This document shows, one piece after another, positions 2,400 through 19,018 of a DNA stretch of 52,508 nucleotides. Below the pieces are notes generated by a model, which was given only the letters and a program-made list of their open reading frames with translations, was not told the DNA's origin and made no database searches. Origin of the DNA: Deltaproteobacteria bacterium (GTDB lineage: Bacteria > Myxococcota_A > Polyangia > JAAYKL01); contig JAUVDV010000033.1 in assembly GCA_030595125.1 (NCBI GenBank), positions 1-52,508 on the forward strand. The letters are read 5' to 3'. Made by a program: the position numbers and the translations under genes. The stretch's first letter is position 1. Each line of letters opens with the position of its first letter.

Positions 2400-3364
2400 G
2401 ATCTGTAATTTCACTAATGGTGATCGCCTGCCTTCTCGCGGTCTGTGTGGGTAGCGCGAGAGCCGACGATGACAAACAGGGGAACAAAGCGAAGGCGGGC
2501 GAGTATTTTGCCAAGGGCTCGGGCCTGTTCGAGTCCGGAGATTTCGCCAGGGCTGCGGCGTCTTTCCTCCTTGCTTACGAGCTCGCGCCCCATCCAATGG
2601 TCCTTGCCAACATTGCCATGTCTTACGACAAGGCGGGTAACATCGTGAAGGCCATCGAGTATTACGAGAAATACTTCGCCGGTCTCAAGAAAAAGAAGGA
2701 GCGAAAGAAGATCAAGAAACGGCTGAAGGAGCTGTCTTCAATGGTCGGAGAGCTGTCGGTCGAGTGCCCATCGGCGAGCTGTCGCATCGAGATCGACAAG
2801 ATAGATCGCGGCAAAGCGCCGGTGCGCATTGTCGTGGAGATTGGGTTACATCGAGTGGAGGCATTCGATGGCGATGACAAGATCGCAGCCGTCGACGCCA
2901 GGGTCGTGTCGGGCGAGGTCTCCAGGGTTGAGCTGTTCCAGCGGGAGGAACTACCCAAAGAAGAGGTTGCAGTTGAGGAGCCCGTTGAGCAACCTATTGA
3001 GGAAGAGGTTCCTGTAGAACCGCCACCGGTAGCGGAAGAAGAGGGGCCGACGCTCGGGGCAGGATTCTGGATATCGGCCGGAGCGACTGTCGCGGCGGGA
3101 GCGGTCACAGTTGTGTTCGGCGTCAGGGCGGTGAAGGCCAAGGAGGATTTCGATGCAAGCGGCGGCACCGACGAGGATCTCAAGGAACAGGGCGAGCGGG
3201 ATCAACTGATCAGCAACATCATGATCGGCGTAACATCCGGTGCGGCTGCCTGCGCCGTCGCTTTTCTGATATATGACCTCACTTCTGACGACAGTGAGGA
3301 GGAGAAACCGGTGGCCGTGGTTCCCGGGCCCGGGCTTGGTCTCGCCGTTGTCGGACGATTTTAG
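2396..3364 (+). CDS. Secreted or anchored TPR/PEGA-domain protein
   Basis: I chose the GTG at 2396 because it overlaps the kinase stop (GTGA), has GGGGAG upstream, and places a signal peptide (hydrophobic SLMVIACLLAVC, then ARADD) at the N-terminus; an upstream ATG at 2351 would add an acidic leader before it. The 322-residue product has TPR-like helices (about 30-110: AKAGEYFAKGSGLFESGDF, PHPMVLANIAMSYDK), a PEGA-like beta domain, an acidic Pro/Glu linker and one or two membrane segments near the C-terminus. A paralogue with the same order of parts lies at 49201-50331. It is probably a periplasmic partner of the upstream kinase (inference from the overlap and the shared PEGA domain). Its 3' end overlaps that of fabD by 4 bp. 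Confidence 0.8.
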   Translation: MRSVISLMVIACLLAVCVGSARADDDKQGNKAKAGEYFAKGSGLFESGDFARAAASFLLAYELAPHPMVLANIAMSYDKAGNIVKAIEYYEKYFAGLKKKKERKKIKKRLKELSSMVGELSVECPSASCRIEIDKIDRGKAPVRIVVEIGLHRVEAFDGDDKIAAVDARVVSGEVSRVELFQREELPKEEVAVEEPVEQPIEEEVPVEPPPVAEEEGPTLGAGFWISAGATVAAGAVTVVFGVRAVKAKEDFDASGGTDEDLKEQGERDQLISNIMIGVTSGAAACAVAFLIYDLTSDDSEEEKPVAVVPGPGLGLAVVGRF

Positions 3365-4305
3365 TTCCCGTCGAGAGTCGTGACGAGCCGGTCGAGGGAT
3401 CTCAGATCTGAGACGTTGTGAACACGAACATCCGGGTCGGGCAGGTTGAGGCGAATAAGACCGCGCAGCACCTTCCCCGGACCGATCTCTACGAAATCCG
3501 TTATCTCTGCCTGAGCCAGGTGATCCATGACGAGATCCCATCTCACCGGGGTGACCAGCTGACCTGCGATCAGGTTCTTTATATCGTCCGGGTCAGCCGA
3601 TTCGCGCCCGTGTCGGTTGAAAACCATCTTCACGGACGGTACTGAAAGCTCGAGATCGTTTAGCGCCTCCGTGAACCTCGTGACCGCCGGGCGCATGTGC
3701 TCGCAGTGCCATGCTCCGGAGACCCGAAGCGGCGTGACTCTGACATCTTGTTCTCGTTGAATTGCTTGCGTGACCCTGTCGAGGATGGCGGGATCTCCGG
3801 ATATCGCAACCTGGCCTGGAGCGTTGACAGCCGCCGCCGCGACAACGCCTGTTTCGGCAAAGGGCTCCACTATTTTGAAGACTTCCTCCACGCGAAGGCC
3901 GGTCACCGCGATCATCGTGCCCTCTTGGAGTTTCGCCGCCTCGTCCATGGCCTCGCCCCTCACCGCCGCGAGTGATACCGCGTCGCGCGGATCTACCGCC
4001 CCGCACGCTGCCAACGCCGGAATCTCTCCCACCGAGTGCCCCGCGGTGATCAGCGGCTCCACACCCGCGTCGACGATCTTCTTCCACAGACCCAGGCAAA
4101 CCGCGGTCATGGCCGGTTGCAGAAACCTTGTTCGTGCGAGCTTCCTCGCCGGCCCTCGGGCGCACGTGCGCGCGACATCTTCACCGATCGCAAGAGACGC
4201 GCGGTCCACCAGCTCGTCCAGGAATGGATCGCGACCGAACATGTCGCGGCCCATGCCCACATCCTGGGCTCCCTGTCCGGGGAAAAGGAAAGCTATCCGG
4301 GACAT
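3361..4305 (-). CDS. fabD: Malonyl-CoA:ACP transacylase FabD
   Basis: A 314-residue acyltransferase that moves malonyl from CoA to the acyl carrier protein in type II fatty acid synthesis (cytoplasm). The GQGAQ motif lies at 10-14, the nucleophile Ser91 in GHSVGE, the substrate Arg in VRGEAM (R116) and the catalytic His200 in AWHCEHM. Length and motif spacing match the FabD family. The ATG directly abuts the fabG stop (TAA then ATG), so the two are co-transcribed. No acyl carrier protein or ketosynthase gene is adjacent, unlike the usual fab cluster. Confidence 0.95.
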   Translation of the reverse strand: MSRIAFLFPGQGAQDVGMGRDMFGRDPFLDELVDRASLAIGEDVARTCARGPARKLARTRFLQPAMTAVCLGLWKKIVDAGVEPLITAGHSVGEIPALAACGAVDPRDAVSLAAVRGEAMDEAAKLQEGTMIAVTGLRVEEVFKIVEPFAETGVVAAAAVNAPGQVAISGDPAILDRVTQAIQREQDVRVTPLRVSGAWHCEHMRPAVTRFTEALNDLELSVPSVKMVFNRHGRESADPDDIKNLIAGQLVTPVRWDLVMDHLAQAEITDFVEIGPGKVLRGLIRLNLPDPDVRVHNVSDLRSLDRLVTTLDGN

Positions 4306-5064
4306 TTAGCTCACCGCCGATGTGAGCCCGCCGTCCACGACGATTTCCTGGCCCACGATATAGCCGGCATCCGGGGACACCAGGAAGGAAATGACCTTTG
4401 CAACCTCGCAGGGGTCGCCAAACCGCTTGAGGAGGATCCGATCCATTGCGGATCGCTTGACTTGCCTGGGCATCTTCGCGGTCATCTCGGTCTCTATGAA
4501 CCCGGGAAGCACCGCGTTCACGCGAACACCCTTGGGCGCCAGCTCCGCCGCCATGGATCGGGTGAAGGCCACCAGCCCGCCCTTGGACGCGCAGTAGTTC
4601 GACTGACCGGCTATTCCGAAGATCGCCGCGATGGAAGACACGGTGACGATGGCGCCGCTCTTTGCGGTCATCATGGGGCGACACGCGGCCTTCGCAAAAC
4701 GGAACGCTCCGATCAGGTTGGTCTGGATCACGTCGACGAAATCCTCCTCCTTCATCATCATGAGGTATTGATCGCGTGTTATCCCGGCGTTGCACACCAG
4801 GATGTCCAGCTTCCCGTGGCCGGACACGATCTCCTCCACCGTGGAGGTCACCGCTTGCGAATCCCTCGAATCGCAGAGGACCGGCGTGGCGATCCATCCG
4901 TTGGCCGCGCAGCGCTCTTCAAGCTCCGTGGCCGCGCTTCGTCCCTTGACGAAAGTGAACGTGACATTAGCCCCGCAAGCGCAAAGTTCTTCCACCACGG
5001 CGCGCCCGATCCCGCGGGATCCGCCCGTCACGAGCGCCGTTTTTCCATCCAGATTTTTCGACAT
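4306..5064 (-). CDS. fabG: 3-oxoacyl-[ACP] reductase FabG (short-chain dehydrogenase)
   Basis: A 252-residue SDR enzyme that reduces 3-oxoacyl-ACP with NADPH in fatty acid elongation. Visible motifs are the Rossmann TGGSRGIG (13-20), NAG at 92-94, Asn116, Ser144, and the catalytic Tyr157 and Lys161 in SNYCASKGG. The C-terminus ends GGLTSAVS, near the usual FabG ending. It sits 19 bp downstream of the beta-propeller gene and abuts fabD. SDR enzymes are hard to assign by sequence alone, but the neighbouring fabD supports FabG. Confidence 0.92.
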   Translation of the reverse strand: MSKNLDGKTALVTGGSRGIGRAVVEELCACGANVTFTFVKGRSAATELEERCAANGWIATPVLCDSRDSQAVTSTVEEIVSGHGKLDILVCNAGITRDQYLMMMKEEDFVDVIQTNLIGAFRFAKAACRPMMTAKSGAIVTVSSIAAIFGIAGQSNYCASKGGLVAFTRSMAAELAPKGVRVNAVLPGFIETEMTAKMPRQVKRSAMDRILLKRFGDPCEVAKVISFLVSPDAGYIVGQEIVVDGGLTSAVS

Positions 5065-5083
5065 CTCACGCCTTTCGCGCAGC

Positions 5084-6514
5084 TCACCAGATCAACAAGT
5101 GTCCCTCTCCCACCGCCACGATCCTGTCTCCCCGGGACGCCGCAGCCACGATCCAATCGGCCGACAGAACTTCGGTCACAAGCACCCGTCCGGTCTTGCC
5201 GTAGGCGTCGATCTGAATCAATCCGCTTTTCATCGCACAACTCAACACATCGCTCTCGCTCAACCACTCCAACATTCCCTTGCAGCGAGCACCCATACTG
5301 CCGCCGTGTGGTTTCGGATCATCCGCCGAGCGCTTCACCTCGACCGTCATCAACCCGGTTTCTTCATGGGAGATGAAAAGCCGACGCCCCTTTTCATCCA
5401 GGGCGATATCTTCCACGGCGTACGGATCGAGATCGATCTGGGTCAACATTGAGCGCCGGTTGATCTCCCAGACGCGCACCACGGTGCTCGTAGCGTCGTA
5501 CTCAAGCGTTGCAAAACGACTCCCGTCTCCGCTCACTGCCAGGCGATCGATGGGGCCGCGCACTTTTCTCGGTGGAAGCCTCCAGGCGATGGTTCCGTCC
5601 GAAAGGTACCACAGAGTGACCTCTCCCGATTCTCCGGCGACGGCCATGACGTGCCCCGGCGGAATGCTCCGCGCGGTCCTTCCCTTCGACGGTATCGCCA
5701 TGTGTTGCCCGCCGCAAAGGGCGTCGAACCGGTGCATCTCACCGTCGGCCGCAAGTGCCACCACCCACCGCCCATCCGACGAGAACGCGATATGGACCAC
5801 GCCTCCCGAATCGGGCGGGAACAGGGATTGCCAGATAACTTGCGGCTCCGATGATAAGTTGTACATCTCCATGCGGGGCCGCAGCCCTCCGATGGCCATC
5901 GCCAGCAGTTCCCCGTCGGGACTGAGGGCGAGCGCACGCGCCTCCTTGCTCACTCCGGGAAGATCGCATACGGGCCGACCGGGCTTGCCGTCCTTTACGC
6001 AGACCGACGGCGGCGGCGGCTCCACCCACTCCATCAGCTCCCGGGCATCCACGACGGAGGAGACACGGGCGCCCACTATCCTCATCTCGAACCTGGGCGA
6101 GGGATCGAAACGTTGGCCGATGGGCTCGAGGATCCATTTGATCGCAAACCCCCTGTCGAGATCCTCATCCGTCACATTTTCCTTCAACGGGCGCAGCGTG
6201 AGAGCGTCGCCTGTGACAACGAGCGTGAGCCCGGCCACTTTGGGCCACCGGACGCGCTGTGGATTCACCTGAACCGACGGTTCTTGCGACCCAAGGCTGG
6301 AGTCGAGGCAGAACTGGGCCTCCTGGCCATCGCTCACGTACGAAAAACGCCTGCCGGGAAACTCCCCGGGGGCGAGCAGGGCTTCGAGAGCCTCCTCCGT
6401 CACGGTACCGTTTTCACCGACGAGGGACTGCAGATCCGCGAACACCGTGCCGGAAGTCAGCGACAGGGCAAGGATGAACGCCGCCGCGGCGCATTGCATA
6501 CTCCGCGCTCTCAC
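5084..6514 (-). CDS. Secreted WD40-like beta-propeller protein
   Basis: A 476-residue product with a signal peptide (hydrophobic AAAAFILALSLTSGTVFADL). After a ~170-residue N-terminal part come repeats of the form LALSPDGELLAMA, IAFSSDGRWVVALA and LAVSGDGSRFATLEY, typical of a WD40/YVTN-type propeller in the periplasm or outside the cell. The GTG at 6514 overlaps the selD stop by four bases (GTGA), which favours this start; an ATG at 6499 is the alternative. Its position between selD and fabG suggests one transcript, but nothing links its function to either. Ligand or partner unknown. Confidence 0.75.
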   Translation of the reverse strand: MRARSMQCAAAAFILALSLTSGTVFADLQSLVGENGTVTEEALEALLAPGEFPGRRFSYVSDGQEAQFCLDSSLGSQEPSVQVNPQRVRWPKVAGLTLVVTGDALTLRPLKENVTDEDLDRGFAIKWILEPIGQRFDPSPRFEMRIVGARVSSVVDARELMEWVEPPPPSVCVKDGKPGRPVCDLPGVSKEARALALSPDGELLAMAIGGLRPRMEMYNLSSEPQVIWQSLFPPDSGGVVHIAFSSDGRWVVALAADGEMHRFDALCGGQHMAIPSKGRTARSIPPGHVMAVAGESGEVTLWYLSDGTIAWRLPPRKVRGPIDRLAVSGDGSRFATLEYDATSTVVRVWEINRRSMLTQIDLDPYAVEDIALDEKGRRLFISHEETGLMTVEVKRSADDPKPHGGSMGARCKGMLEWLSESDVLSCAMKSGLIQIDAYGKTGRVLVTEVLSADWIVAAASRGDRIVAVGEGHLLIW

Positions 6515-7575
6515 CGATGGGCTCCGGGTGCGTTGAGGATCACCTTCTCGCCGTCATCGACTACTGCCGAACCGACATCCACCGCCGGGATTCCCTTTGC
6601 GCGCAGGCGTGAAACCATCTGGGCCGTCGAGTTCTCATCGAGGGCGATGAGCAGGCCGCCGGAGGTTTGCGGATCGCACACGATGTCCACCATGTGCCGC
6701 TCCACGCCGGACTCCACCACGAGGGACTCTTTCCAGTGCTTCTCGTTGCGGTGCAACCCCTCGGGCAACAAGCCCATTTCGGCGTACGTAACCGCTTGCG
6801 GGAAATAGGGCAGCTTGCCGACGTCAATGTGCACGGACACGCCGCCTCCCTCGATCATCTCGCGGATGTGACCCAGAAGGCCAAAACCCGTCACGTCCGT
6901 GCAGGCGGTGACCGGAAAATCGCGCATGATTTTGGCCGCATACCGGTTGAGAGTGGACATCGACTCGATGACGGATTCTATCGCCGATCGCTCTGCCAGT
7001 TCGGCTTTCACGGCGGTGTTCACGATGCCCGTGCCCAGCGGTTTCGTGAGCACCAGGCGATCCCCGCCCCGGATTCCCCGGTTGGTAAGCACCCTGTTCG
7101 GATGCACGGTGCCGGTGACGGAGAGTCCGTACTTGAGTTCCGGATCGGTGACGCTGTGGCCTCCGACGAGGGTCACCCCGGCCTCCTTCATCTTGTCCAG
7201 CCCGCCCGCGAGGATCTCCTGGAGCACCGAGATGTCCATGGTGTCGATGGGAAAGCCCACGATGTTCATTGCGCAGATGGGAGTGCCGCCCATGGCGTAG
7301 ACGTCGGACAGGGAATTGACGGCTGCAATTTGCCCGAAGGTGAAGGGATCATCGACGATGGGCGTGAAGAAATCGACCGTCTGTACAATGGCCAGCTCGT
7401 CCGTCAGGCGGTACACCCCCGCGTCGTCGGATCTGTCCAGCCCGACGATCAGATTGGGATCGCGGTCGAAGGTCAACCCACAGAGCGCCGCGGCCAGGTC
7501 CCCCGGCCCGAGCTTGGACGCTCACCCGGAGCCGACCACGTTTCTCGTCAGGTGCAGTTCTTCCTTCTTGGTCAT
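6511..7575 (-). CDS. selD: Selenide, water dikinase SelD with an in-frame UGA (selenocysteine) at the catalytic position
   Basis: SelD makes selenophosphate from selenide and ATP, the selenium donor for selenocysteine synthesis. Conventional translation starts only at 7476 (TFDRDPNLIVG) and lacks the catalytic N-terminus. Reading on from an ATG at 7575 (AGGAG upstream) gives the family's expected beginning, LTRNVVGSG-U-ASK, with TGA (7522-7524) exactly where most SelD proteins have Cys (E. coli Cys17), followed three residues on by the essential Lys. The full product is 354 residues, normal for the family. The rest shows DDAGVYRL, GGTPICAMN, GGHS and TGFGLLGH. A hairpin suited to selenocysteine insertion follows the UGA (see 7492-7508). 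First gene of a minus-strand operon; its stop overlaps the propeller gene. Confidence 0.95.
7492..7508 (-). promoter_or_regulatory. Predicted bacterial SECIS hairpin in selD
   Basis: On the mRNA a 7-bp stem (GGCCGGG with CCUGGCC, one G-U pair) closes a GGA triloop. The stem begins 14 nt and the loop 21 nt after the UGA, inside the 16-37 nt range known for bacterial SECIS loops read by SelB. The presence of G residues in the loop also fits. Hand-folded; not energy-tested. Confidence 0.65.
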
Positions 7576-7585
7576 CTCCTAAACA

Positions 7586-7679: not shown

Positions 7680-9578
7680 ATGAGAATACGGGTTGCATGG
7701 ATTTTGCTGTTCGTTTGCTCGATGGGCTTTGGAGCGGTTGCTTGTTCGAAGAGTCACGGCAACGACGATCCGGACGGCGGAGATACGGACTCTGATACCG
7801 ATTCGGATTCGGACACTGACACGGATGCCGACGAGTGGTGCCCGAAGCTGGAGACCTCCTGCGAGGCGCCGGAGGAACTGGAGATCTGTGATGTTGTCAA
7901 GCTGGGCGCGCCGAGGCTGATCTTCCCGCTGTCGGGAAGGCACATAAGAGACCGGCGGCCACAGATCATATGGGAGGAAGCGCCGGGGGCGACTCAATAC
8001 CGGTTGGAGATAGCGAGGGACCGCGCGTTCACCGACGTTGTATATCGCTCCACCGACTACCAGCCGCTGGGAACGGATCGGTTCGAACATATTGTGAGCT
8101 GCGACCTGGACTGCGGGGTTCACTTCTTTCGGGTGAAATCCGTGACCGCGCCGGAGTGCGAGTGGGGCGCGTCATCTTACACCTGGGAGATGTTTGTGGG
8201 CATGGCCCCCGGCGACCTCGACCGCGACGGCGTACCGGACATCGCTTATTTCACTTTTGTGGAGTCGCAGGGGGAGATGGAGCCGAACCTGTTGCAGGCG
8301 TGGGCGTTCTTCAACCTGGACGAGCAGGAAGACGAGGCGGTGGCGACGAAGGTCGTGGAGTTCGAGATTGATAAGATCGATTACGGGCCCACCCCACACG
8401 CTTTCTACCCCGGCGATACCAACGGCGACGGTTATGCCGACCTTGGCTTTGTATTCGGATATAGAGAAACCGAAGGCGATTGGTCCACGCTAATCACCAA
8501 GGCCTACGTATTCAGCGGACTGACCGCAGATTACTTGGCGGGCGAGGAGGACGCTATCCGCCGTTTGGAGTCCACGGTTGGTGAGCGTTACTTTGAATCC
8601 GGTTGGGGATACGCAGAGGCATATAGGTTTTCGGACGTGAACGGCGATGGCAGGCCAGATCTGGCGTTCACGCGATACGACTACGAACCCGACGAGGTGA
8701 ACGAGGTTTTGGTGCTGTTGAGCGAGGGCGATAGTTCGAGTGTCGAGAATTTCAAGGACAACGCCATCCGTATTGCATGTCCCTCGTGGTGCACCCCTGA
8801 GCATGGGATGCTGCCTCAAATGTTCTATGCCGACGTGAACGGCGACGGCTTCGGCGATTTCTGGCTGCGGGTCGAAGATGCGTCGTCATACTGGCATCAG
8901 CTCTTCGTGTTCGGCGACGCGACTTTTTCCAATATAGACGATCCGGAAACCTCGGGACTTCTGATCTCCCCTTCTGCCTCAAGTGTGATCATCGGAGACT
9001 GGAACTTGGCTCGTAGCATCGAGGCAAGTTTTCCCGTCGGCGATATAGACAACGATGGCTTCATTGAGATTGCGGGTTTCAACTGGGCATTCGATCACAC
9101 TGTGTCCGAACCGGTTTCGACCTGCGGTTTCTCCGTGGTCCGCGACGACTTGGAAACCGGGGTGATCACATACGATAACGCCATCGACTTCACCTTCGTC
9201 AGCGGCTTCCCGGTCTCGGACTACGAGAACACAGAGAAGCTTCAGTCCATCCGCGGCACCGGCGACCTCACCGGCGACGGCATCGACGATTTGTTTTTCG
9301 AAACCGATTTCAACAATTCCGTGGATAGCGGGCGGATCTTTCCAGTCGACGGCCGGGCCGAATGGCCGGAGCTTTTCGATGTGGCGGAAGAAATCCCCAT
9401 TCTTCTCTTTGACGGATTTTATAGAACAATTGCGGATGTTGATGGCGATGGAGTGAATGACATCCTGTACAGTTGCAGCGAAGGCGCAAATATTATTTTA
9501 TCCAGCAACGGAGAAGAAATCAGTTGGGCGCCCAATCCATGGGTGCCTGGTTTTTTTGCGTTTCCGATGATCTACTGA
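7680..9578 (+). CDS. FG-GAP/VCBS-repeat lipoprotein with Asp-Ser/Thr linker
   Basis: A 632-residue surface protein. A signal peptide ends in GAVAC-S, a plausible lipobox with Cys22. A short Asp-Ser/Thr linker (DTDSDTDSDSD) follows, then an FN3-like domain (PLSGRHIRDRRPQIIWEEA and FFRVKSV), then seven calcium-binding-type loops (DLDRDGVPD, DTNGDGYAD, DVNGDGRPD, DVNGDGFGD, DIDNDGFIE, DLTGDGIDD, DVDGDGVND). These are the signature of integrin-like FG-GAP propellers. Seven repeats predict a seven-bladed propeller. It is probably a calcium-stabilised adhesion or recognition protein on the outer membrane. It stands alone between two copies of a 28-bp repeat. Confidence 0.85.
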   Translation: MRIRVAWILLFVCSMGFGAVACSKSHGNDDPDGGDTDSDTDSDSDTDTDADEWCPKLETSCEAPEELEICDVVKLGAPRLIFPLSGRHIRDRRPQIIWEEAPGATQYRLEIARDRAFTDVVYRSTDYQPLGTDRFEHIVSCDLDCGVHFFRVKSVTAPECEWGASSYTWEMFVGMAPGDLDRDGVPDIAYFTFVESQGEMEPNLLQAWAFFNLDEQEDEAVATKVVEFEIDKIDYGPTPHAFYPGDTNGDGYADLGFVFGYRETEGDWSTLITKAYVFSGLTADYLAGEEDAIRRLESTVGERYFESGWGYAEAYRFSDVNGDGRPDLAFTRYDYEPDEVNEVLVLLSEGDSSSVENFKDNAIRIACPSWCTPEHGMLPQMFYADVNGDGFGDFWLRVEDASSYWHQLFVFGDATFSNIDDPETSGLLISPSASSVIIGDWNLARSIEASFPVGDIDNDGFIEIAGFNWAFDHTVSEPVSTCGFSVVRDDLETGVITYDNAIDFTFVSGFPVSDYENTEKLQSIRGTGDLTGDGIDDLFFETDFNNSVDSGRIFPVDGRAEWPELFDVAEEIPILLFDGFYRTIADVDGDGVNDILYSCSEGANIILSSNGEEISWAPNPWVPGFFAFPMIY

Positions 9579-10466: not shown

Positions 10467-10859
10467 ATGCGGGAAAGACTACAGATAAGGATCGGCATCG
10501 TGACGGCAACCGTCGCCGTATCGATTCTCGCGACCTTCTGCTCACGGAATGTCACGAAGGGTGAATCCCACGGTCCCGGTTTCGAGGCTACGGGCGCCAC
10601 AATGGAGATCCGGGTTCCCACGGGGCAGATAGTCGCGCGCGGCGACCGGATGACAATTGATGAGGACGGGACGGAAATTGTATTCACGGGTAACGCCCGT
10701 GTCGAGATCGATGGTGAGGCGACCTTCGAGGCGACGGCACAGCAACTGAGAGTGGAGGGGAACGGCTCCGTCGTCAGGATGAATGGGAACGTCAAGGCCA
10801 GGTTCGAAGTGCCTTCGACGACCGCGGGGTGGAATGAGACAGCGGCGGATGGAAACTGA
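10467..10859 (+). CDS. LptC-like / OstA-domain periplasmic protein
   Basis: A 130-residue protein with an N-terminal hydrophobic segment (IGIVTATVAVSILATFC) and a beta-rich OstA-like body (VPTGQIVARGDRM, IVFTGNARVEIDGEATFEA). It precedes lptA and lptB. In the Lpt machine LptC anchors the periplasmic bridge to the inner-membrane transporter. The order lptC-lptA-lptB is the usual one, which supports the call. The protein is shorter than E. coli LptC (191 residues), and the family is poorly conserved, so a second LptA-like protein is the alternative. Confidence 0.65.
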   Translation: MRERLQIRIGIVTATVAVSILATFCSRNVTKGESHGPGFEATGATMEIRVPTGQIVARGDRMTIDEDGTEIVFTGNARVEIDGEATFEATAQQLRVEGNGSVVRMNGNVKARFEVPSTTAGWNETAADGN

Positions 10860-11316
10860 TCGTTCATTTTGGATGGGCGCCCTCATGGCCCTGGCGCTGG
10901 TCATGAGCGTGGCCGTCGACGTGTGGGCGGAGGACTCGGTGGAAGTAGAGTCCGATCGCCTCGAAATCGATCACAAGGCCAGGAGCGCCCGGTTCGAGGG
11001 AAACGTCCTCGCAAAATACGGGGATATTGCACTTCGGTGCGATCGGATGACCGCGACGTACAGCGACGACGGCGCCGTGATCTCCCTTCTGGCAAGCGGG
11101 CACGTGCGCGTGTCGCGGGGGGACACCAGCGCGACCGCAGGCAAGGCCAGGCTCGACGCCCGCCTGGGGCTACTGGTGCTCGAGGGCAAACCCGTGGTGA
11201 TCAGAGGTTCCGACAGGCTCGAGGGGAAACGAATATCAATTCATATACAGTCTGGTCGGCTGGAGGTGACCCGGGCGAAGGGCGTGTTCAAGCTCGGGGT
11301 GGGAAACCCCAAGTGA
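10834..11316 (+). CDS. lptA: LPS transport periplasmic protein LptA
   Basis: A signal peptide (MGALMALALVMSVAVDVWAED) is followed by an OstA-type beta-jellyroll: VEVESDRLEIDHKARSARF, EGNVLAKYGD and repeated strands. LptA forms the bridge that carries LPS across the periplasm. I took the ATG at 10834 (GGGTGG upstream); an ATG at 10849 is possible. Both overlap the end of the lptC-like gene by a few codons, and the stop overlaps the GTG of lptB, so coupling is tight. The 160-residue length is normal for LptA. Confidence 0.8.
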   Translation: MRQRRMETDRSFWMGALMALALVMSVAVDVWAEDSVEVESDRLEIDHKARSARFEGNVLAKYGDIALRCDRMTATYSDDGAVISLLASGHVRVSRGDTSATAGKARLDARLGLLVLEGKPVVIRGSDRLEGKRISIHIQSGRLEVTRAKGVFKLGVGNPK

Positions 11317-12026
11317 GCCGGATCCTGGCAGTTCGCGGGCTCACGAAATCTTTCAAGGGCCGCACAGTCGTCGATGATCTGGATCTGGAGATCGGCACAG
11401 GTGAGATCGTCGGTCTCCTGGGACCGAACGGCGCGGGCAAGACCACCACGTTCAAGATGATCCTGGGCCTGGTTCGACAGGATCAAGGGACCGTGTCTTT
11501 TTCAGAACCGCTGGACGGCCTCCCTCTTCATCTGAGGGCGAGAAGGGGGCTGGGGTATTTGCCCCAGGGTCCGTCGGTTTTCAGGGGATTGAGCGTGCGC
11601 GACAACCTGCTCGTGCTCCTGCAGACGCTCAAGAAACCAGACCCCGGTAAAAGAGCGGACGAGATCCTCGGACGGTTTGGGCTGGACCGGCTGGCGGGTC
11701 AGAGGGCGGGCACCCTTTCCGGTGGGGAGCGACGCCGGCTGGAGTTTGCAAGGGCCCTGTGCTCGGACCCGGAGGTCCTCTGCGTGGACGAGCCCTTCGC
11801 CGGGGTCGACCCCATCGCCCTGGCCGGGATATCGGCGGCCATCGAGGATCTGGCGCGCGGAGGAGTCGGGGTCTTGCTGACGGACCACACCGTGCGCGAG
11901 GCGCTGTCCGTCTGCGATCGCATCTACCTTATCGTCGATGGAAAGATCGTGGAAAGCGGATCGCCGGATGATATTCGCAGCAGCGACATCGCCCGACGAC
12001 TCTACCTCGGAGCGGATTTCGATTGA
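11313..12026 (+). CDS. lptB: LPS export ABC transporter ATP-binding protein LptB
   Basis: A 237-residue ABC ATPase that powers LPS extraction from the inner membrane. It has Walker A GPNGAGKTT, Q-loop LPQGPSVF, signature LSGGERRR, Walker B VLCVDEPFAGVDP and the LptB-typical switch LLTDHTVREAL. The GTG at 11313 overlaps the lptA stop; the longer open frame upstream is a shadow of lptA. The permeases LptF/LptG are not in the window. The 3' end overlaps the convergent rhodanese gene by 25 bp. Confidence 0.93.
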   Translation: MSRILAVRGLTKSFKGRTVVDDLDLEIGTGEIVGLLGPNGAGKTTTFKMILGLVRQDQGTVSFSEPLDGLPLHLRARRGLGYLPQGPSVFRGLSVRDNLLVLLQTLKKPDPGKRADEILGRFGLDRLAGQRAGTLSGGERRRLEFARALCSDPEVLCVDEPFAGVDPIALAGISAAIEDLARGGVGVLLTDHTVREALSVCDRIYLIVDGKIVESGSPDDIRSSDIARRLYLGADFD

Positions 12027-12421
12027 ACGCCGGCTCCGACTTCCACGGGAAACCCCGCTTTCTTCCACTCCTTGCAGCCTCCCACTACGAGGATGGTTTC
12101 GATGCCGCGCTCGTTGAGCCGCTTCACGCCGTTGAGCGCGTTCCTGCCGCAGGTGCAGATAAGGGCAACTTCTCCGTCGAGAGCCGCGATGTCCGCCGCC
12201 TTCTCATCGAGCTTTTCCAGTGAGCAGTTCCTTGCCCCCGGCACGTGACCCTTGCGAAACAGTACCGCCGGGCGAACATCGATGACCGTCACCTTGCGGG
12301 AGGGATCGTCCATGGCGGCCTTGAGCTCCTGCACCGAGAACTTGGGTCCGCTGTAACCACATCCCAAAACCGTGAGGAAAACCGCGATCGACAAACAGCC
12401 AATGATTTTTTGAATAAGCAT
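12002..12421 (-). CDS. Rhodanese-domain lipoprotein
   Basis: A 139-residue product with a signal peptide ending in the lipobox VLGC (Cys21), then a single rhodanese domain: VTVIDVRPAVLFRKGHVPGA and the active-site loop ICTCGRNA with catalytic Cys89. Rhodaneses transfer sulfur or bind anions; a periplasmic lipid-anchored form may serve sulfur or redox chemistry. Its ATG directly abuts the end of the ABC permease gene, so it is the last gene of the 12.0-17.4 kb operon. Its role there is unknown. Confidence 0.85.
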   Translation of the reverse strand: MLIQKIIGCLSIAVFLTVLGCGYSGPKFSVQELKAAMDDPSRKVTVIDVRPAVLFRKGHVPGARNCSLEKLDEKAADIAALDGEVALICTCGRNALNGVKRLNERGIETILVVGGCKEWKKAGFPVEVGAGVQSKSAPR

Positions 12422-13750
12422 TTAACTCCTGTCCTGCCTTGCCATTCTGACTATCGCCACCCCGAAGAAGAGCGCTGCGAAGAGGAGGAGGATTCCGATC
12501 TCCGGCAGCACCTCCGCCGTGCCCTTGTTTCTGACCAGAATGTCCAGATAGGCGTCCAGCGCCCAGCCATGGGGGACAAAGAGACTCATATCGCGCATGA
12601 ATTGCGGCATCACGAACTTGGGAACCATGATCCCGCCAACGGCGCTCATGATGATGAGGACTGAAGCCGAGATGGACGCCGCGAGGAACTCCGTTCGGGA
12701 GAAGGAAGCCATGAACAGGCCGAAACCAATGGCCACAAGCGAGATGGCGATAGTGACCAGGGCGAGTCCGGGAATGTTTGAGAGTATCAGATCCGGGCAA
12801 CCGAGCGCGGGGAGCACGAATACGCCCAGCGCAAACATGAACACCGCCTGCACGAGGTTGATGAGCATGAACGGAATTGTTTTCCCAAGAACAAAAGTCA
12901 GGAGCCCCGCCGGAGACACCATTATCCTTGTGTACGCGCCGCTCAATCGTTCTTGCAGGATGTTCAGAGCCAGGATCTGCGCAATCCAGAACAGCGCGAA
13001 GATCGTCCAGCCAGGGACGTTTTGCTGAACCGCATTCGGGGAAGGATCGTCCGCGATCTCCGTCACTCGTTTGCTTTCGACCTGTAGACCGCGCTTCTGG
13101 ATGGCGTATTTCGGCTGCAACTCCAGGGGGAAATCTGTTTCGAATGCGGGCCAGAAGTCGGGGTCATCCACTCCCGAGTCAGGTTCGCTGTGCGGCGCCT
13201 TGAACATATGGCCAAGTTGTTCCAGCGAACCGGCGAGTTCATCGATCACTTCTGACTTGGCGTTCGACTCCGCCATATAGCGCGCCAGTAACGAGTAGTG
13301 AATGAAGCTATTGACGGCCCCGGCAAGAGCGTTTGTGAACTGTCTGGAGAGGATTGGATCGATGATCAGCTCGACGACCGCGTCCTCTTCGTACAGCAAC
13401 GCCTCCTCACTTTTTACGGGGATGATCATTGCAAGCTGGAAGGAGCCGGCGGTAACCTCCTCGATGGCCCGTTCTCGAGTAGGTGGATTTCCGTCCAACA
13501 AGGTTACGGCCCGGAAGTGGCCGTTCGTACCGACGGACTCCACGAGCCTGACGCCGAAGTCACCGGGATCCAGATTGACGATGAGGATGTCGAGTTTTTC
13601 GTCGTTGTCCGTGGACGAAAAAGCTCCCTGGAGCGCGACCGACAGCACCAGGATGAAGATGCTCGGAAGCACGAAGAGCAGGAGGAGGCCGCCGGGATCC
13701 CGGAGGAGAAGGTGGAGTTCCTTGAAGACGATAGCGAACAGCCTGATCAT
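12422..13750 (-). CDS. ABC-2 type transporter permease
   Basis: A 442-residue membrane protein. One TM segment lies near the N-terminus (GLLLLFVLPSIFILVLSVAL), followed by a ~200-residue external domain and five or six TM segments at the C-terminus, the layout of the ABC-2 export family (YhhJ/ABC2_membrane_3 type). It starts 13 bp after the methyltransferase-ABC fusion, which supplies the ATPase. The pair should export a substrate across the inner membrane; the ACP and BtrH-like genes upstream suggest a modified small molecule or lipid-like product (inference). Confidence 0.87.
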   Translation of the reverse strand: MIRLFAIVFKELHLLLRDPGGLLLLFVLPSIFILVLSVALQGAFSSTDNDEKLDILIVNLDPGDFGVRLVESVGTNGHFRAVTLLDGNPPTRERAIEEVTAGSFQLAMIIPVKSEEALLYEEDAVVELIIDPILSRQFTNALAGAVNSFIHYSLLARYMAESNAKSEVIDELAGSLEQLGHMFKAPHSEPDSGVDDPDFWPAFETDFPLELQPKYAIQKRGLQVESKRVTEIADDPSPNAVQQNVPGWTIFALFWIAQILALNILQERLSGAYTRIMVSPAGLLTFVLGKTIPFMLINLVQAVFMFALGVFVLPALGCPDLILSNIPGLALVTIAISLVAIGFGLFMASFSRTEFLAASISASVLIIMSAVGGIMVPKFVMPQFMRDMSLFVPHGWALDAYLDILVRNKGTAEVLPEIGILLLFAALFFGVAIVRMARQDRS

Positions 13751-13763
13751 CGCGTTCGCTTTC

Positions 13764-15572
13764 TCATGGAGCGTCCCTCAGGTTTTTGCCGGTGATGTCG
13801 AGGAAGACGCTTTCCAGGGATGGTTCGCGAACGCTTTGCAGGGAGATTTTCACCCCCCGGCGCATGGCGGTTGCCCTGATAGCGTTCAGGAGTTCGACGG
13901 TGTTCTCGTTCCGGCTCCCGAACACAGAAATTGCGCCGTCGTTCGCGACGACGTCCTTCACCGGTCCAATTGCCATCAACTCCTTTTCAAGTTCCAGGCC
14001 TGTGGGGTCGTCCGTTGTGAAATCCATTCGGGTCAAACCGTAGCTTGCAACTGCGCGCGCCGGAGTGTCCTCCAGCACGATCCGGCCGTGATCCATGATG
14101 GAGATCCGGTCGCACAGTCGCATGGCTTCTTCCATGTAGTGGGTTGTGTACATGACGGTGGCGCCCGTGTCCCTTATCTCCGAGATAGCCTCGAAGATGC
14201 AGTTACGTGATTGCGGATCTATGCCGACCGTGGGCTCGTCCAGGAAGATGATTTTCGGCTTGTGGAGCAGGCCGGCCGCCAGGTTCAGGCGCCGCATCAT
14301 CCCTGTGGAGAAGTTCGAGATGGGTTCGTTGCCACGTTCTTCAAGGCCGACCACTTGCAGGAGGTGTTCGATGCGCTCGTCCAGTTCCGGTTGCCGGACC
14401 CCGTAGAGCTTTCCGAAGAAAGCGAGGTTGCGGCGCGCGCAGAGCCGGGGGTATAGCGCCAACTCCTGGGGAACGTAGCCGATGGCGTACGCGGGATCTT
14501 CATTGCCGCCCAGGCCCGGGAAGGCCAGGGAGCCTGCGTCTGGTTGAACCAGTCCGGCGAGCATGGATATGATCGTGGTTTTTCCCGCTCCGTTTGGTCC
14601 GAGTAACCCGTGGATAGTCCGCTGTTCGATCACCAGATCCACGGCATCCACCGCGACGGTATTACCGTATCGTTTGCAAAGACCGGTGGTGCTGATGGCA
14701 GGAGCCCCCGTGTGCTCATGTGGAGGCTCCCGGTCAAGTTCGAAGACTCGCTGTCGTGCAATGATGCAGTCGCCGATCTCATCGATCTGCGGGTTGGCGA
14801 TACCGTTTTTCTTCAGCAGGTCGCGGACGGCGGCTTGGTCTCGATATGGCAGGCGTTCGGGGACGCTGTCGTAGAGTACGTCGGCCGGCACTCCGTCTTT
14901 TTCTGCGAGTTCAAAGATGTGCTCAATGGTTTGTTGCTCTTCCTTCATCTTTGCGGGCAGAGTCAGGCCCAGCCACGACCAGTAGAAGAACGCGGAGAAG
15001 ATCGAACTTCCCGTCCACTGAGCTACCAGAGGGACGCATCGAAGTGGATGAACCTTGAGCGTCTTGAAGATCTCGAACATGCGACCCATGTGATACCAGC
15101 GCCCGTCGGAAGAGAGGATGCCTATTCGTTGGTAGATCTTCTTCAGGGCGGGGTCGGCCTGGTAGAACGCGAAGATTACGTTTCCCCGCGAGCATGCTAC
15201 GCGCCGGGCTTGCGCGACTGTTTTCGCGATCTTTTCATCATCTGTCAGGTAATCGATTACGCCGGTCGAGACGATAACGGTTCTGTAACTCTCGTCTTCA
15301 AAGGGAAGGGCGGCCGCGTCACAGCGTTGGATCTCCAGGGAGCGACGGGTCTTCGCCAGCGCGATCATTCGGTCGTCGAGGTCGATACCGTCGACACTGA
15401 GCCCCTTTTCCCTGAGGCGTTCGACGATCAATCCCTGGCCGGCGCCCAGAACGAGGACCGGACTGCGTATGCCCTGCGCGAGCTTGTCCGCGATCCGCGT
15501 GCTCATATGGCGGTCTTCGAGGTGCTCCCAGTAGGGCGCCCAGGCGTTCCACCATTTTTGATTCCCGTCCAT
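13764..15572 (-). CDS. Fusion of a SAM-dependent methyltransferase and an ABC transporter ATPase
   Basis: A 602-residue protein with two domains in one open frame. Residues 1 to about 275 form a class I methyltransferase: SAM motif VLVLGAGQG (39-47), acidic residue in GIDLDD, then DAAALPFEDESY. From about 290 to the end is a complete ABC ATPase of the drug-export (CcmA/DrrA) kind: Walker A GPNGAGKTT (324-332), FSTGMMRRL signature, Walker B IIFLDEPTVGIDP, H-loop TTHYMEEA, plus a C-terminal regulatory tail. The stretch around residue 280-290 looks like a linker. It lies 21 bp after the BtrH-like gene and 13 bp before the permease. Such a fusion suggests that methylation and export of one substrate are coupled. 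Confidence 0.9.
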   Translation of the reverse strand: MDGNQKWWNAWAPYWEHLEDRHMSTRIADKLAQGIRSPVLVLGAGQGLIVERLREKGLSVDGIDLDDRMIALAKTRRSLEIQRCDAAALPFEDESYRTVIVSTGVIDYLTDDEKIAKTVAQARRVACSRGNVIFAFYQADPALKKIYQRIGILSSDGRWYHMGRMFEIFKTLKVHPLRCVPLVAQWTGSSIFSAFFYWSWLGLTLPAKMKEEQQTIEHIFELAEKDGVPADVLYDSVPERLPYRDQAAVRDLLKKNGIANPQIDEIGDCIIARQRVFELDREPPHEHTGAPAISTTGLCKRYGNTVAVDAVDLVIEQRTIHGLLGPNGAGKTTIISMLAGLVQPDAGSLAFPGLGGNEDPAYAIGYVPQELALYPRLCARRNLAFFGKLYGVRQPELDERIEHLLQVVGLEERGNEPISNFSTGMMRRLNLAAGLLHKPKIIFLDEPTVGIDPQSRNCIFEAISEIRDTGATVMYTTHYMEEAMRLCDRISIMDHGRIVLEDTPARAVASYGLTRMDFTTDDPTGLELEKELMAIGPVKDVVANDGAISVFGSRNENTVELLNAIRATAMRRGVKISLQSVREPSLESVFLDITGKNLRDAP

Positions 15573-15593
15573 GGGGCTTCCCCCCTCTGGTTG

Positions 15594-16673
15594 TCAGCCC
15601 AGATCAGCGGCGATGTTGCCGAGATCCCTGAAGAACCTGTCTTCCACGTCTGCAGCCTTTTCAAACAGACCGGCGATCTCGTCGAGACCGTCATCGAGCA
15701 TCCCGGCATTCTGCCGGATCCAATCGTTGTATTCTTCATCGCTTGTGGGCAGCTTCTTGCCCAGGCGAATCAGCATCCTGGAGATATCCCGCCAGTTTCG
15801 TCCGTGCTCGATTATCCGGTCGGCCATTTCCACGAGGGCTGTGGATCCCAGCAGTTCGGCGGCCTCCTGGAGAAAGGCGCCGTACATCAGGCGGAACGCG
15901 CCGCCGCCGGTACCCTGGTCTTCGAAACCCACGGCGTTGAAGAGGATACCCTCGCGAAGTATCACGCCGGAGAAGTCTTTTGGCCATTGGCGAATTTTTT
16001 TTGCATAGGTCCGCATCCCCTGGATTCCCACGAAAAACATAAGGTTCCTGATGACCGGCGGGAGGATCATGTTCTTGCAGGTGCGCTTCATTCCCCTGAT
16101 GACGGCGTTCTTCCAGTCTATCTCGCCAGGAATATTCTTCACGTGGAAGAGGGAGTTGTCCTTTGCGAGGGGTGCATGGGTCTCCCAGGCGGCTCTCAGG
16201 TCGTCGATATGAAGGTAGCCGATCTCTTCGAAGTAGGGATCCGAGATCGTATAGCGATCACCTTCCACGCCCACGAGGATGATGAAGTGAAACGGCGCAT
16301 GGACGTGGAGGAAGGAGGGCAGGTACTTCATGTAGAACATGTCGACGCTAAGGGCCACCGGCACATTGGATTCGAGCAGTTCGTGAGCTCTGGCCAATGC
16401 CTTGTCGGTGTTCGAGTACTGTCTGGAGAAGAAGTCGATGCCGCTGAGTTTTGAAACGTTCTTCAGAATTGTGCCGGGTGGTGTGCGGATACCGATGAGT
16501 GGAAATGTACTCGGCCCCTTGGCGAAAAATAGATAGTAAAAGGCAGGCCCGGAGCCGATTCCGAAGATCATCGGTTCCGTTACTTCCAGTCCGGCGTGCC
16601 TGATGAGGTTTCGCACGCTACCCGTTTCGCAGTGGGCGCCAACATCGTGAGTGTAATTACTTATTGTTTTCAT
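15594..16673 (-). CDS. BtrH-like acyltransferase (BtrH N-terminal domain plus C-terminal DUF4872-like region)
   Basis: A 359-residue protein. The N-terminal domain has the BtrH_N pattern: HCETGSVRNLIRHAG with Cys15, VHAPFHFIILVG with His129, and ISDPYFEE with Asp145, a papain-like Cys-His-Asp arrangement. In butirosin biosynthesis BtrH moves an aminoacyl side chain from the carrier protein BtrI to the amine of ribostamycin. The helical C-terminal half fits DUF4872. The ATG at 16673 overlaps the end of the HTH gene by 17 bp; an upstream extension to 16796 is a shadow. A carrier protein gene lies in the same operon, as for BtrH/BtrI. The acyl donor and the acceptor are unknown. Confidence 0.8.
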   Translation of the reverse strand: MKTISNYTHDVGAHCETGSVRNLIRHAGLEVTEPMIFGIGSGPAFYYLFFAKGPSTFPLIGIRTPPGTILKNVSKLSGIDFFSRQYSNTDKALARAHELLESNVPVALSVDMFYMKYLPSFLHVHAPFHFIILVGVEGDRYTISDPYFEEIGYLHIDDLRAAWETHAPLAKDNSLFHVKNIPGEIDWKNAVIRGMKRTCKNMILPPVIRNLMFFVGIQGMRTYAKKIRQWPKDFSGVILREGILFNAVGFEDQGTGGGAFRLMYGAFLQEAAELLGSTALVEMADRIIEHGRNWRDISRMLIRLGKKLPTSDEEYNDWIRQNAGMLDDGLDEIAGLFEKAADVEDRFFRDLGNIAADLG

Positions 16674-17127
16674 TTGCCGTGATCGTTGTTTTTTGCAGCA
16701 GACGGTTGTTGTGCCTCGTATTTTTGACGTTGATATCGTCGGGAACGAGCGTGAAGTTGAAAAAGTCCGCGAGCATAATATCGAACACGCGGGCATATCG
16801 CTGGAGTATTTCGATGCTCACTTTCTTGAACCCATCCGGTGTCAGGTGCTTCTTGACTGTCGAGGCGCTCACACGCACGCGCGAAGCCAGATCCTTCACG
16901 GTGATTTGCTGGTAATCCATAAAGAAGTAGACGGGGCTTATCTCATTGTCCGTCAGCCTGACGAGAAGGCGCCTCACTTCCTTCGCACGCTGTTCGTAGT
17001 AGAGATGGATGTCAGATGCGAACTCCGACTCTGCCAGAGAGGATACGCATTTGCCATTCTCGTCGGCGTCCCACATCAGGAATCTGTGCGGGTGTTTTTG
17101 CTGTTCGGGTGTCTCGGTGATTATCAT
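16657..17127 (-). CDS. HTH (XRE-like) DNA-binding protein
   Basis: A 156-residue protein. Residues ~68-115 form a helix-turn-helix of the Cro/C1 kind: ITVKDLASRVRVSASTVKKH, followed by VSIEILQRYARVFDIMLADFF, the familiar end of XRE domains. The N-terminal ~65 residues are of no known family. It has a GGGGGAT ribosome site and the ATG at 17127. Encoded between the ACP and BtrH-like genes and overlapping the latter, it is probably the local regulator of this operon. No operator was identified with confidence. Confidence 0.7.
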   Translation of the reverse strand: MIITETPEQQKHPHRFLMWDADENGKCVSSLAESEFASDIHLYYEQRAKEVRRLLVRLTDNEISPVYFFMDYQQITVKDLASRVRVSASTVKKHLTPDGFKKVSIEILQRYARVFDIMLADFFNFTLVPDDINVKNTRHNNRLLQKTTITANENNK

Positions 17128-17170
17128 TGATCCCCCTGTGGGTTCTTGCAGCGCGGTGGAACGCGGCCGG

Positions 17171-17434
17171 CTATTCGGATACGAGCTTGCCCTGGATGAA
17201 GCCGGAGAGAGTGCCCAGGTTACTGTAAGACGACTTCGATCTCTCGGACGGAAGGATGTTCACACCGTATTCCTTCTCGATCATGATCTCTATTTCTATC
17301 GCGTCAATCGAGTCGAACTCCAGGCCATCGCCACCGAAGAGCGGGGTCTTTCCGGTGATTTTGCTCGGATCGACTTCCTCCAGTTGGAGGTGCTTGATCA
17401 GTTTGCCCAGTAGTTCCGATTCGTATTCGTTCAT
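17171..17434 (-). CDS. Acyl carrier protein
   Basis: An 87-residue protein with the four-helix ACP pattern and the phosphopantetheine attachment site LEFDSIDAIEI (Ser42). The acidic helix II and MIEKEYGVNI helix III are typical. It is the first gene of the operon with the BtrH-like acyltransferase, and is more likely its dedicated acyl donor carrier than the fatty acid ACP, which usually sits with fabD/fabG (fabD and fabG lie 12 kb away). No phosphopantetheinyl transferase or loading ligase is in the window. Confidence 0.88.
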   Translation of the reverse strand: MNEYESELLGKLIKHLQLEEVDPSKITGKTPLFGGDGLEFDSIDAIEIEIMIEKEYGVNILPSERSKSSYSNLGTLSGFIQGKLVSE

Positions 17435-17554
17435 CTGGCTTACACTTGTTCCTGGCTGTCGATGACAGGCATCTTCGAAACATCCTCCGGGGTCTTGCCG
17501 AAAGTGGTAAATATCAGGCGAGATCTCGCGTGTAAAGAGTCGATGCGCGCCAGT

Positions 17555-17573
17555 CAGGCTGGCGAATTATGCA
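17555..17573 (-). repeat. 19-bp core of the TGCATAATTCGCCAG repeat, inverted copy
   Basis: On the minus strand this 19-mer is identical to 28392-28410 and 43174-43192. Here it lies in the divergent gap between the ACP and sigma-54 activator genes and forms part of a small hairpin (CGCCAG / CTGGCG). Confidence 0.7.
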
Positions 17574-17635
17574 AGTTAGAATATTTTGTTTCGATTTTCC
17601 GTGGAAGTCTTCGATTTGGGTCGTATATTTTGTCA

Positions 17636-19018
17636 ATGAAAGAATGTCCCGACGAGCTGTTCCCGCTGATTTTCGACAGCATCAATGAAGGTGTCTTCAC
17701 GGTTGATGAGAATTTCAAGATCACCTCGTTCAACGCCGCCGCCGAGCGCATCATCGGCATCTCCAAAAACGACGCCATCGGGAAACCGTGCCACGAGGTG
17801 TTGCGGGCGAGTATTTGCCAGAAGAGGTGCGCCCTGAGGTCCACTCTTGAAACAGGTGAGCCGAAGCGCGATGTTCGCGTGGATGTGTTGAACGCCCATA
17901 TGGAGTCGGTGCCCATCACGATCTCAACCGCAGTGCTGAGGGACAGTGACGGCCGTCTGATCGGAGGGGTCGAGATCTTCAAGGACGTTTCCGAGATGGA
18001 AACCCTGCGCAGCGAGCTGGACGGACGTCGGAGCTTTCGGGACATCATCGGACAGAGCGCCCCCATGAGGGAGATCTTCGCGCTGATCCCGCAGGTGGCC
18101 GAGTCCGAGGCGCCGGTACTCGTGAGTGGGCCGAGCGGTACGGGGAAGGAACTCGTCGCGCAGGCGGTTCACGATCTGTCACCGCGAAAGGACAAAGCCT
18201 TTGTTCGCGTGAACAGCGGGGCTCTGCCGGACACCCTGCTCGAGTCGGAGCTCTTCGGGTACGTGAGGGGCGCCTTCACGGGGGCCAACCGCGACAAGCC
18301 CGGCCGATTTCAGCTGGCCCACGGAGGCACTCTCTTCCTCGACGAGATCGGCGACATCTCACCGGCGTCCCAGGTCAAGCTGCTGAGGGCTCTCGAGGAA
18401 GGCGAGATCCAACCCCTGGGAGCCGCGACAACCACCAGGGTGGATGTGCGACTGATCTGCGCGACCAACCAGGACCTGGAGAGCATGGTGGCCGACGGCC
18501 TGTTCCGCGAGGATCTCTATTATCGAATACGGGTCATCCCGATCGATCTGCCAACGCTCAATCAACGCCGGGAAGACATCCCCCTGCTCATTGCACACTT
18601 TGTCAAACTGCATTCGGCCCGCACGGGTCGCCCCGCTCCGAGCATCAGCAGCAAGGCCATGAGGCTGCTCTATGACTACAAATACCCGGGGAACGTGCGC
18701 GAACTGAGGAACATCATCGAGCGCGCTTTCGTCCTTTGCTCGCGAAGCACAATCGAGCCCCACTGCCTTCCCCCGGAGGTCGTTTACCCGTCGGAATCGC
18801 GCGCCCCTCGCGCGCCGGGCGCCGGTTCCCTTCCCTCGGAGAAGAAGATCGCTTTGACCGATGCAACAAGCCCCGCAAATCACCCGGACACCCCGGAGGC
18901 CCGCAAGCTGCGTTCACTCCTGGAGGCCCACGGCTGGAACCGCACCGCCACAGCCAGAGAGCTGGGCATAGGTCGTACAACGCTGTGGCGAAGGATGAAG
19001 GGCTACGGACTGATCTAA
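17636..19018 (+). CDS. Sigma-54-dependent transcriptional activator (PAS-AAA+-Fis)
   Basis: A 460-residue enhancer-binding protein from the ATG at 17636. An upstream TTG/ATG extension to 17462 has no domain and crosses a repeat. An N-terminal PAS domain (about 5-120) carries three closely set Cys (C52, C61, C65 in GKPCHEVLRASICQKRC), a possible redox or metal/Fe-S sensor. The AAA+ domain has Walker A GPSGTGKE (K171), the sigma-54 contact loop GAFTGA (212-217) and Walker B LFLDEIGD. The C-terminus is a Fis-type HTH (GWNRTATARELGIGRTTLWRRM). It is divergent from the ACP operon. In Desulfovibrio a similar activator controls the ORP operon, so the sigma-54 promoter at 24307 is a likely target. 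Confidence 0.92.
   Translation: MKECPDELFPLIFDSINEGVFTVDENFKITSFNAAAERIIGISKNDAIGKPCHEVLRASICQKRCALRSTLETGEPKRDVRVDVLNAHMESVPITISTAVLRDSDGRLIGGVEIFKDVSEMETLRSELDGRRSFRDIIGQSAPMREIFALIPQVAESEAPVLVSGPSGTGKELVAQAVHDLSPRKDKAFVRVNSGALPDTLLESELFGYVRGAFTGANRDKPGRFQLAHGGTLFLDEIGDISPASQVKLLRALEEGEIQPLGAATTTRVDVRLICATNQDLESMVADGLFREDLYYRIRVIPIDLPTLNQRREDIPLLIAHFVKLHSARTGRPAPSISSKAMRLLYDYKYPGNVRELRNIIERAFVLCSRSTIEPHCLPPEVVYPSESRAPRAPGAGSLPSEKKIALTDATSPANHPDTPEARKLRSLLEAHGWNRTATARELGIGRTTLWRRMKGYGLI

Follow-up and report, generated by a model that had tools for sequence, protein, structure and literature searches.

The subject of this analysis is a five-gene cassette on the minus strand of a 52,508-nt stretch of contig JAUVDV010000033.1 (assembly GCA_030595125.1, a Deltaproteobacteria bacterium of the class Polyangia); this whole stretch is called the window here, and all coordinates are positions in it. 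Six open reading frames (ORFs) are closely packed at 12002-17434, with gaps of no more than 43 bp and one overlap, at the place given in an initial annotation of the sequence. From head to tail (12422-17434), the cassette encodes an 87-aa acyl carrier protein (ACP; 17171-17434), a 156-aa DarG-like helix-turn-helix (HTH) protein (16657-17127), a 359-aa putative acyltransferase of BtrH/DarH type with BtrH_N and DUF4872 domains (15594-16673), a 602-aa fusion of an S-adenosylmethionine (SAM)-dependent methyltransferase (MT) to an ATP-binding cassette (ABC) ATPase (13764-15572), and a 442-aa ABC-2 type permease (12422-13750). The ACP and HTH genes are separated by 43 bp, the HTH and BtrH genes overlap by 17 bp, 21 bp lie between the BtrH and MT::ABC genes and 13 bp between the MT::ABC and permease genes, and the permease gene is followed at 0 bp by the gene of a rhodanese lipoprotein (12002-12421, also on the minus strand). 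All five cassette genes are intact and under purifying selection, with ratios of nonsynonymous to synonymous substitution rates (dN/dS) of 0.08-0.19 between the window and the close relative L032, whose BtrH protein is 95% identical.

The borders of the cassette can be read from an empty site. In the same-genus genome G450, which has no BtrH match, one contig carries in sequence the sigma-54 regulator, 57 bp of unique sequence, the rhodanese gene and LptB, and these copies of regulator, rhodanese and LptB are 92-93%, 89% and 92% identical to the window, respectively. Homology between the window and G450 ends at 17580 and resumes at the rhodanese ATG (12421), directly past the permease stop codon; that is to say, the five genes are present or absent within the genus as one block of 5159 bp (12422-17580, minus strand). 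Since both keep their place in the cassette-free G450, the rhodanese gene (Pfam match of 51 bits, cut-off 22) and the divergent gene of a PAS/sigma-54 activator (17636-19018, plus strand) are native neighbours. Of the six-gene operon proposed in the initial annotation, a unit of five genes therefore stands, and the rhodanese gene falls away from it. A neighbourhood survey gives the same division: ACP, BtrH, MT and ABC exporter travel together in Myxococcota, and the rhodanese gene was found beside them only in the window's genus. Convergent with the rhodanese gene, and overlapping it by 25 bp, are lipopolysaccharide (LPS) transport genes at 10467-12026 on the plus strand, coding for two LptA/LptC-like proteins and an LptB-like ATPase.

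The cassette is distributed patchily: among 318 genomes of the class, 8 are carriers. Its gene order, ACP-HTH-BtrH-(MT::)ABC-permease, is found again in the Myxococcota loci L033, L034, L035, L037 and L086, which belong to several genera, and there the BtrH proteins are 50-61% and the MT::ABC proteins 42-46% identical to those of the window; in L037 the ABC ATPase is present without the MT. The GC content of the cassette is 0.566 against 0.58-0.59 in its surroundings, a difference which is not diagnostic, and at its borders only short, weak repeats were seen, none of them convincing. No match to a -24/-12 sigma-54 promoter was found upstream of the ACP gene, nor were such matches in excess of chance across the window. 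The cassette was also considered as a defence system, and this was rejected, as PADLOC gave no relevant match and the ABC and HTH matches were generic.

The ACP is PRK09184-like (NF006617, 56.6 bits, cut-off 70), and the putative phosphopantetheine site Ser42, in the motif F-D-S-I-D, is invariant among 14 homologues, so that the carrier protein recognised at the outset is upheld; the general family PP-binding (PF00550) reaches 18.2 bits, just under its cut-off of 20.8. The HTH protein is of Cro type (HTH_26, 29 bits, cut-off 22) and resembles the DarG of flexirubin clusters below the model thresholds (NF053545, 3.6e-15 and 56 bits, cut-off 170; NF053536, 50 bits, cut-off 70). In most relatives its gene stands directly ahead of BtrH.

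For the BtrH gene, the start codon is an internal ATG, at 16673 (MKTISN..) rather than 16796, and the catalytic residues are numbered from this start. Both domains lie far above their cut-offs (BtrH_N PF14399, 116.2 bits, cut-off 29.7; DUF4872 PF16169, 107.7 bits, cut-off 28), and the triad Cys15-His129-Asp145, noticed earlier as Cys-His-Asp, is conserved in 114 homologues, with His and Asp at 100% and Cys at 96%, the remainder being gaps. The AlphaFold2 model of the protein has a predicted local distance difference test (pLDDT) score of 93. When compared with solved structures, this predicted model matches CtaG (Z 24.3 over 294 residues), AziU3 (22.8) and CcbD (21.8) over the full length including DUF4872 (Z 21.5-24.3, about 292-314 residues), by which the protein would belong to the fold group of carrier-protein-dependent transferases. 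CtaG of closthioamide biosynthesis (PDB 9qvj), compared by the protein alone, has the same full-length fold and the Cys-His-Asp residues at matching positions, marked by the variants C11A/H128A/D144N in PDB titles, whereas the identity is only 13% and its pathway is nonribosomal peptide synthetase (NRPS)-like; a role in peptidyl transfer from one carrier protein to another has been proposed for it (PMC6772006). CcbD/LmbD of lincosamide condensation (PDB 7yn1, 9dkr) shares the fold, whereas it is 16% identical, has a Cys-His-Glu triad and uses an amino sugar acceptor. CcbD, which has also been solved in complex with its own carrier protein domain, is reported to use a carrier-protein-dependent ping-pong mechanism, in which the carrier-bound acyl group is taken onto Cys and then given to the acceptor (PMC12945683).

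At the level of the family (PF14399), the window protein is also akin to BtrH of butirosin biosynthesis, which moves an acyl group from a carrier protein to a small acceptor; the acceptor there is an aminoglycoside, and we know of no ABC/MT/DarG module accompanying butirosin BtrH. In a maximum-likelihood tree of 114 homologues, the window protein falls into a clade (100/98) made up of 13 sequences from Myxococcota and Spirochaetota, and this clade is the sister of one which holds the DarH of Bacteroidota, Desulfobulbaceae, Gammaproteobacteria and other Myxococcota. Some long branches occur outside this region of the tree, which makes its deep rooting unreliable.

In the fusion protein, one ORF of 602 aa matches Methyltransf_25 (49 bits, cut-off 27; residues about 1-275) and then ABC_tran (93 bits, cut-off 25; about 290-598), and this arrangement is kept in 6 Myxococcota sequences. 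In the two-domain model, residues 278-284 form a linker of low confidence; as the model was built from a 7-sequence alignment and has a predicted template modelling score (pTM) of 0.61, its domain arrangement is not reliable. A stand-alone MT that is 37% identical to the window MT domain occurs in the BtrH cluster of the Spirochaete locus L191, and this homologue supports the MT as a probable real member of the pathway, which in Myxococcota has been fused to the ATPase. In the open-access literature, no paper was found to describe an MT::ABC fusion in such a setting. The permease matches ABC2_membrane_3 (PF12698) with 112 bits (cut-off 31.6), and its best NCBIfam match is SagH-type at 63 bits, below the cut-off; no solved relatives were found for it by sequence.

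The gene set had been called unfamiliar at first, which it largely is not. An ACP, a DarG-like HTH protein, a BtrH/DarH protein, an ABC ATPase and a permease together are the accessory module of the clusters for dialkylresorcinol (DAR) and flexirubin pigments. It has been reported that in Azoarcus sp. BH72 the arcuflavin dar cluster contains an ACP, a BtrH-like peptidase, an ABC ATPase and a permease alongside DarA and DarB (PMC3949708). Compared with this cluster and those of Bacteroidota, DarC corresponds to the ACP, DarE to the BtrH-like protein, DarF to the ABC ATPase and DarI to the permease, and there, too, a hypothetical protein (DarD) stands beside the BtrH-like one. In Bacteroidota the order is DarA-DarB-DarG-DarH-ABC-permease-ketosynthase (KS)-ACP, and in L041, a locus of Chlorobiota/Bacteroidota type, a StlD/DarB-family ketosynthase, DarG and FlxY, all over their cut-offs, surround a DarG-DarH-ABC-permease order. 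The NCBIfam models nearest to the window proteins are likewise DarH, flexirubin DarG and an ACP family, and all of them remain under cut-off, DarH (NF053550) with 230 bits against 300. The window unit differs from the dar and flexirubin clusters in that no DarA, DarB or KS gene adjoins it, its genome has no DarB, the MT is fused to the ABC ATPase, the unit is an accessory cassette, and its BtrH protein belongs to the sister clade. Two things are new relative to the DAR module: that the cassette stands by itself, and that it has a conserved fusion of MT and ABC ATPase.

BtrH relatives occur in type II synthase-like clusters (L038, L191 and the Bacteroidota loci). In the Spirochaete locus L038, whose BtrH is 50% identical to that of the window, there are a KS, an ACP, an AcpS-type phosphopantetheinyl transferase, an acyltransferase, a B12 radical SAM protein, an ACP-HTH-BtrH series, LolA and an MMPL exporter. 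Its ACP, AcpS, KS and acyltransferase are homologous to those of an unlinked cluster in the Myxococcota carriers G447, G448 and G114 (L144, L145, L146), with the order ACP-AcpS-KS-DarB-like KS-acyltransferase-oxidoreductase; DarB-like proteins with 54-65% identity also occur in G011, G031 and Spirochaetes. L191 holds two HTH-BtrH pairs, a KS pair, an ABC ATPase, a permease and a B12 radical SAM protein besides its MT. Tandem BtrH/DarH paralogues are seen there and in the Prevotellaceae loci L069, L071, L074 and L079. Moreover, the Spirochaetota loci L182-L187 (G637, G690, G695, G720, G732) share a conserved cluster around HTH-BtrH-ACP with enoyl-CoA hydratases, a thioesterase, a 3-hydroxyacyl-CoA dehydrogenase, B12 radical SAM proteins, a trypsin/PDZ (HtrA-like) protease, an O-methyltransferase-like protein and, in part of the loci, a DarB-like ketosynthase; from its gene content this looks like an undescribed biosynthetic cluster.

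The window's genome has at least 7 KS loci. At G000:C26 (L142:8107-14366), a B12 radical SAM gene, distantly related to those of the BtrH clusters, is followed by two ORFs (822 and 767 aa) with two ketosynthase domains each, and similar double-KS ORFs occur in the other genomes of the family. A housekeeping FabH-FabD-ACP-FabF set is found at G000:C30, and a second FabD (FabD2) and FabG are encoded 7 kb from the cassette, in a three-gene unit (3361-6514, minus strand) with a secreted WD40-like beta-propeller protein, the order of which is kept in G448, G447 and G450. FabD2 is present in all five family carriers and in G450 and in 0 of 8 other family genomes, counted as genomes without correction for kinship. 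Two candidates for a synthase partner were rejected: the DarB-like cluster as a general partner, for although the 2 of the 318 class genomes in which it was found are both carriers (with a weak match of 111 bits in G121), the window's genome lacks it, and FabD2-FabG (3361-5064) as a dedicated one, for this pair is kept in G450 and was not found in the distant carriers G333, G519 and G379.

Taken together, we are fairly inclined to read the cassette as an accessory unit for the final assembly and export of a small molecule derived from a fatty acid or polyketide, as a class of mechanism. The ACP, in its holo form on Ser42, would be loaded with an acyl chain made by synthases whose genes lie elsewhere in the genome. 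Cys15 of the BtrH/DarH-like enzyme, with His129 and Asp145 as activating residues, would then accept this chain, and a small acceptor would receive it from there on either a hydroxyl or an amino group, by a ping-pong reaction like that reported for the fold relative CcbD. Such a transfer from ACP to acceptor is likely by analogy with CcbD together with the fold match and the triad. The MT domain may methylate the acceptor or the product, in either order with respect to acylation, while tethered to the ABC ATPase, and ATPase and permease would then export the product. The combination of carrier protein, BtrH-type transferase, MT and dedicated exporter, which the initial annotation had already singled out, is borne out by their co-conservation and by the fold of carrier-dependent acyl and aminoacyl transferases. 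Its choice of an amine acceptor is not, for amine is not distinguished from hydroxyl here and the final products of the nearest relatives, flexirubin and arcuflavin, carry an ester. Several points weigh against this assembly-and-export scheme: the cassette contains no synthase gene, the DarB-like cluster is missing from the window's genome and from most carriers and no partner synthase was identified, FabD2/FabG is no dedicated partner, the best solved-structure match of the MT is MitM at a weak 29 bits, and for the flexirubin ester the flexirubin paper suggested the ligase-like FlxW, the role of DarH being undemonstrated.

The same module in DAR clusters raises the question of whether the cassette serves a true DAR/flexirubin-type pigment pathway with its DarA/DarB and polyene genes at other sites, as split dar loci are known in Azoarcus (PMC3949708). 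The remark made at the outset that the surroundings lack core synthesis genes was right, and for DarB this extends to the genome: the best match to the StlD/DarB ketosynthase model in the window's genome, which is 95% complete, scores 34 bits (cut-off 450), with matches at FabH level only, and in no other carrier searched was this threshold attained. Neither DarA nor DarB stands beside any window-clade member examined, DarA is not among the unit's neighbours in L032-L040 (no genome-wide DarA search was made), and no aryl polyene-type genes (type II KS/chain length factor, ketoreductase, dehydratase) adjoin the window's cassette. Because DarB is missing genome-wide and the BtrH protein lies in the sister clade below the DarH cut-off, the window unit is not a DAR cluster, though related to its module; within the limits of genome completeness the pigment pathway is largely refuted, the DarG-like protein also being under its equivalog cut-off, and it is highly improbable. 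It is equally improbable that the BtrH protein acts as a peptidase of C39-like type and processes a peptide for ABC export in the manner of bacteriocin exporters. The papain-like fold is related, an ABC exporter adjoins, and C39-type and PCAT1 peptidase domains reach Z 10-13.6; however, they do so over the N-terminal half of the model only, whereas CtaG and CcbD match through DUF4872, the C39 family (PF03412) stays at 12.6 bits under its cut-off of 22, and the co-conserved partner is an ACP and not a precursor peptide.

An acylated product could also have a purpose other than a secreted metabolite. If the unit acylated an envelope lipid or glycan and flipped it outward, the product would be a structural lipid, and it would be in keeping with this that the relatives L038 and L180 come with LolA, MMPL exporters and a PlsC-type acyltransferase, that flexirubin has been reported to be located in the outer membrane, and that LPS transport genes adjoin the window's cassette; yet the DrrB/SagH-like ABC-2 permease is not lipid-specific and the cassette has no glycosyltransferase, and we regard this as unlikely. 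Self-protection, in which a toxic compound, own or foreign, is acylated, methylated and expelled by the ABC transporter, would suit the patchy distribution, the presence and absence within one genus and the DrrAB/SagH-type transporter. Against it, the relatives sit in synthase clusters, and detoxification normally uses CoA donors, for which a dedicated ACP is unusual; this explanation appears rather improbable.

Two other features of the window may be mentioned. The gene of SelD (selenide, water dikinase; about 6514-7580, minus strand) has an in-frame TGA at 7522-7524 (..VGSGUASKLG..), after which the listed ORF begins, and this SelD is probably itself a selenoprotein, as judged from its reading frame. 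Predicted lipoproteins at 7680, 43418 and 50333 bear long acidic repeats rich in Asp, Thr and Ser (DTDSDTDT) near the N-terminus.

For the biology of the group, the cassette means that the module ACP-DarG-DarH-ABC, known from flexirubin-type clusters, also exists independently of them, being used in a sister lineage of Myxococcota and Spirochaetota without resorcinol synthesis, and that a single genus has members with and without it, the difference being a clean block of 5 kb. It is speculated, tentatively, that Myxococcota export acylated small molecules of an undescribed class, completed by a self-contained, transferable cassette in which an MT built into the exporter ATPase couples tailoring to export, and into which different hosts may plug different chain-building systems. 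The MT::ABC fusion would be an instance of a tailoring step tethered to export, the natural pair of genomes with and without the cassette is a direct route to the product, and so small a system would make the unproven role of DarH-type enzymes testable.

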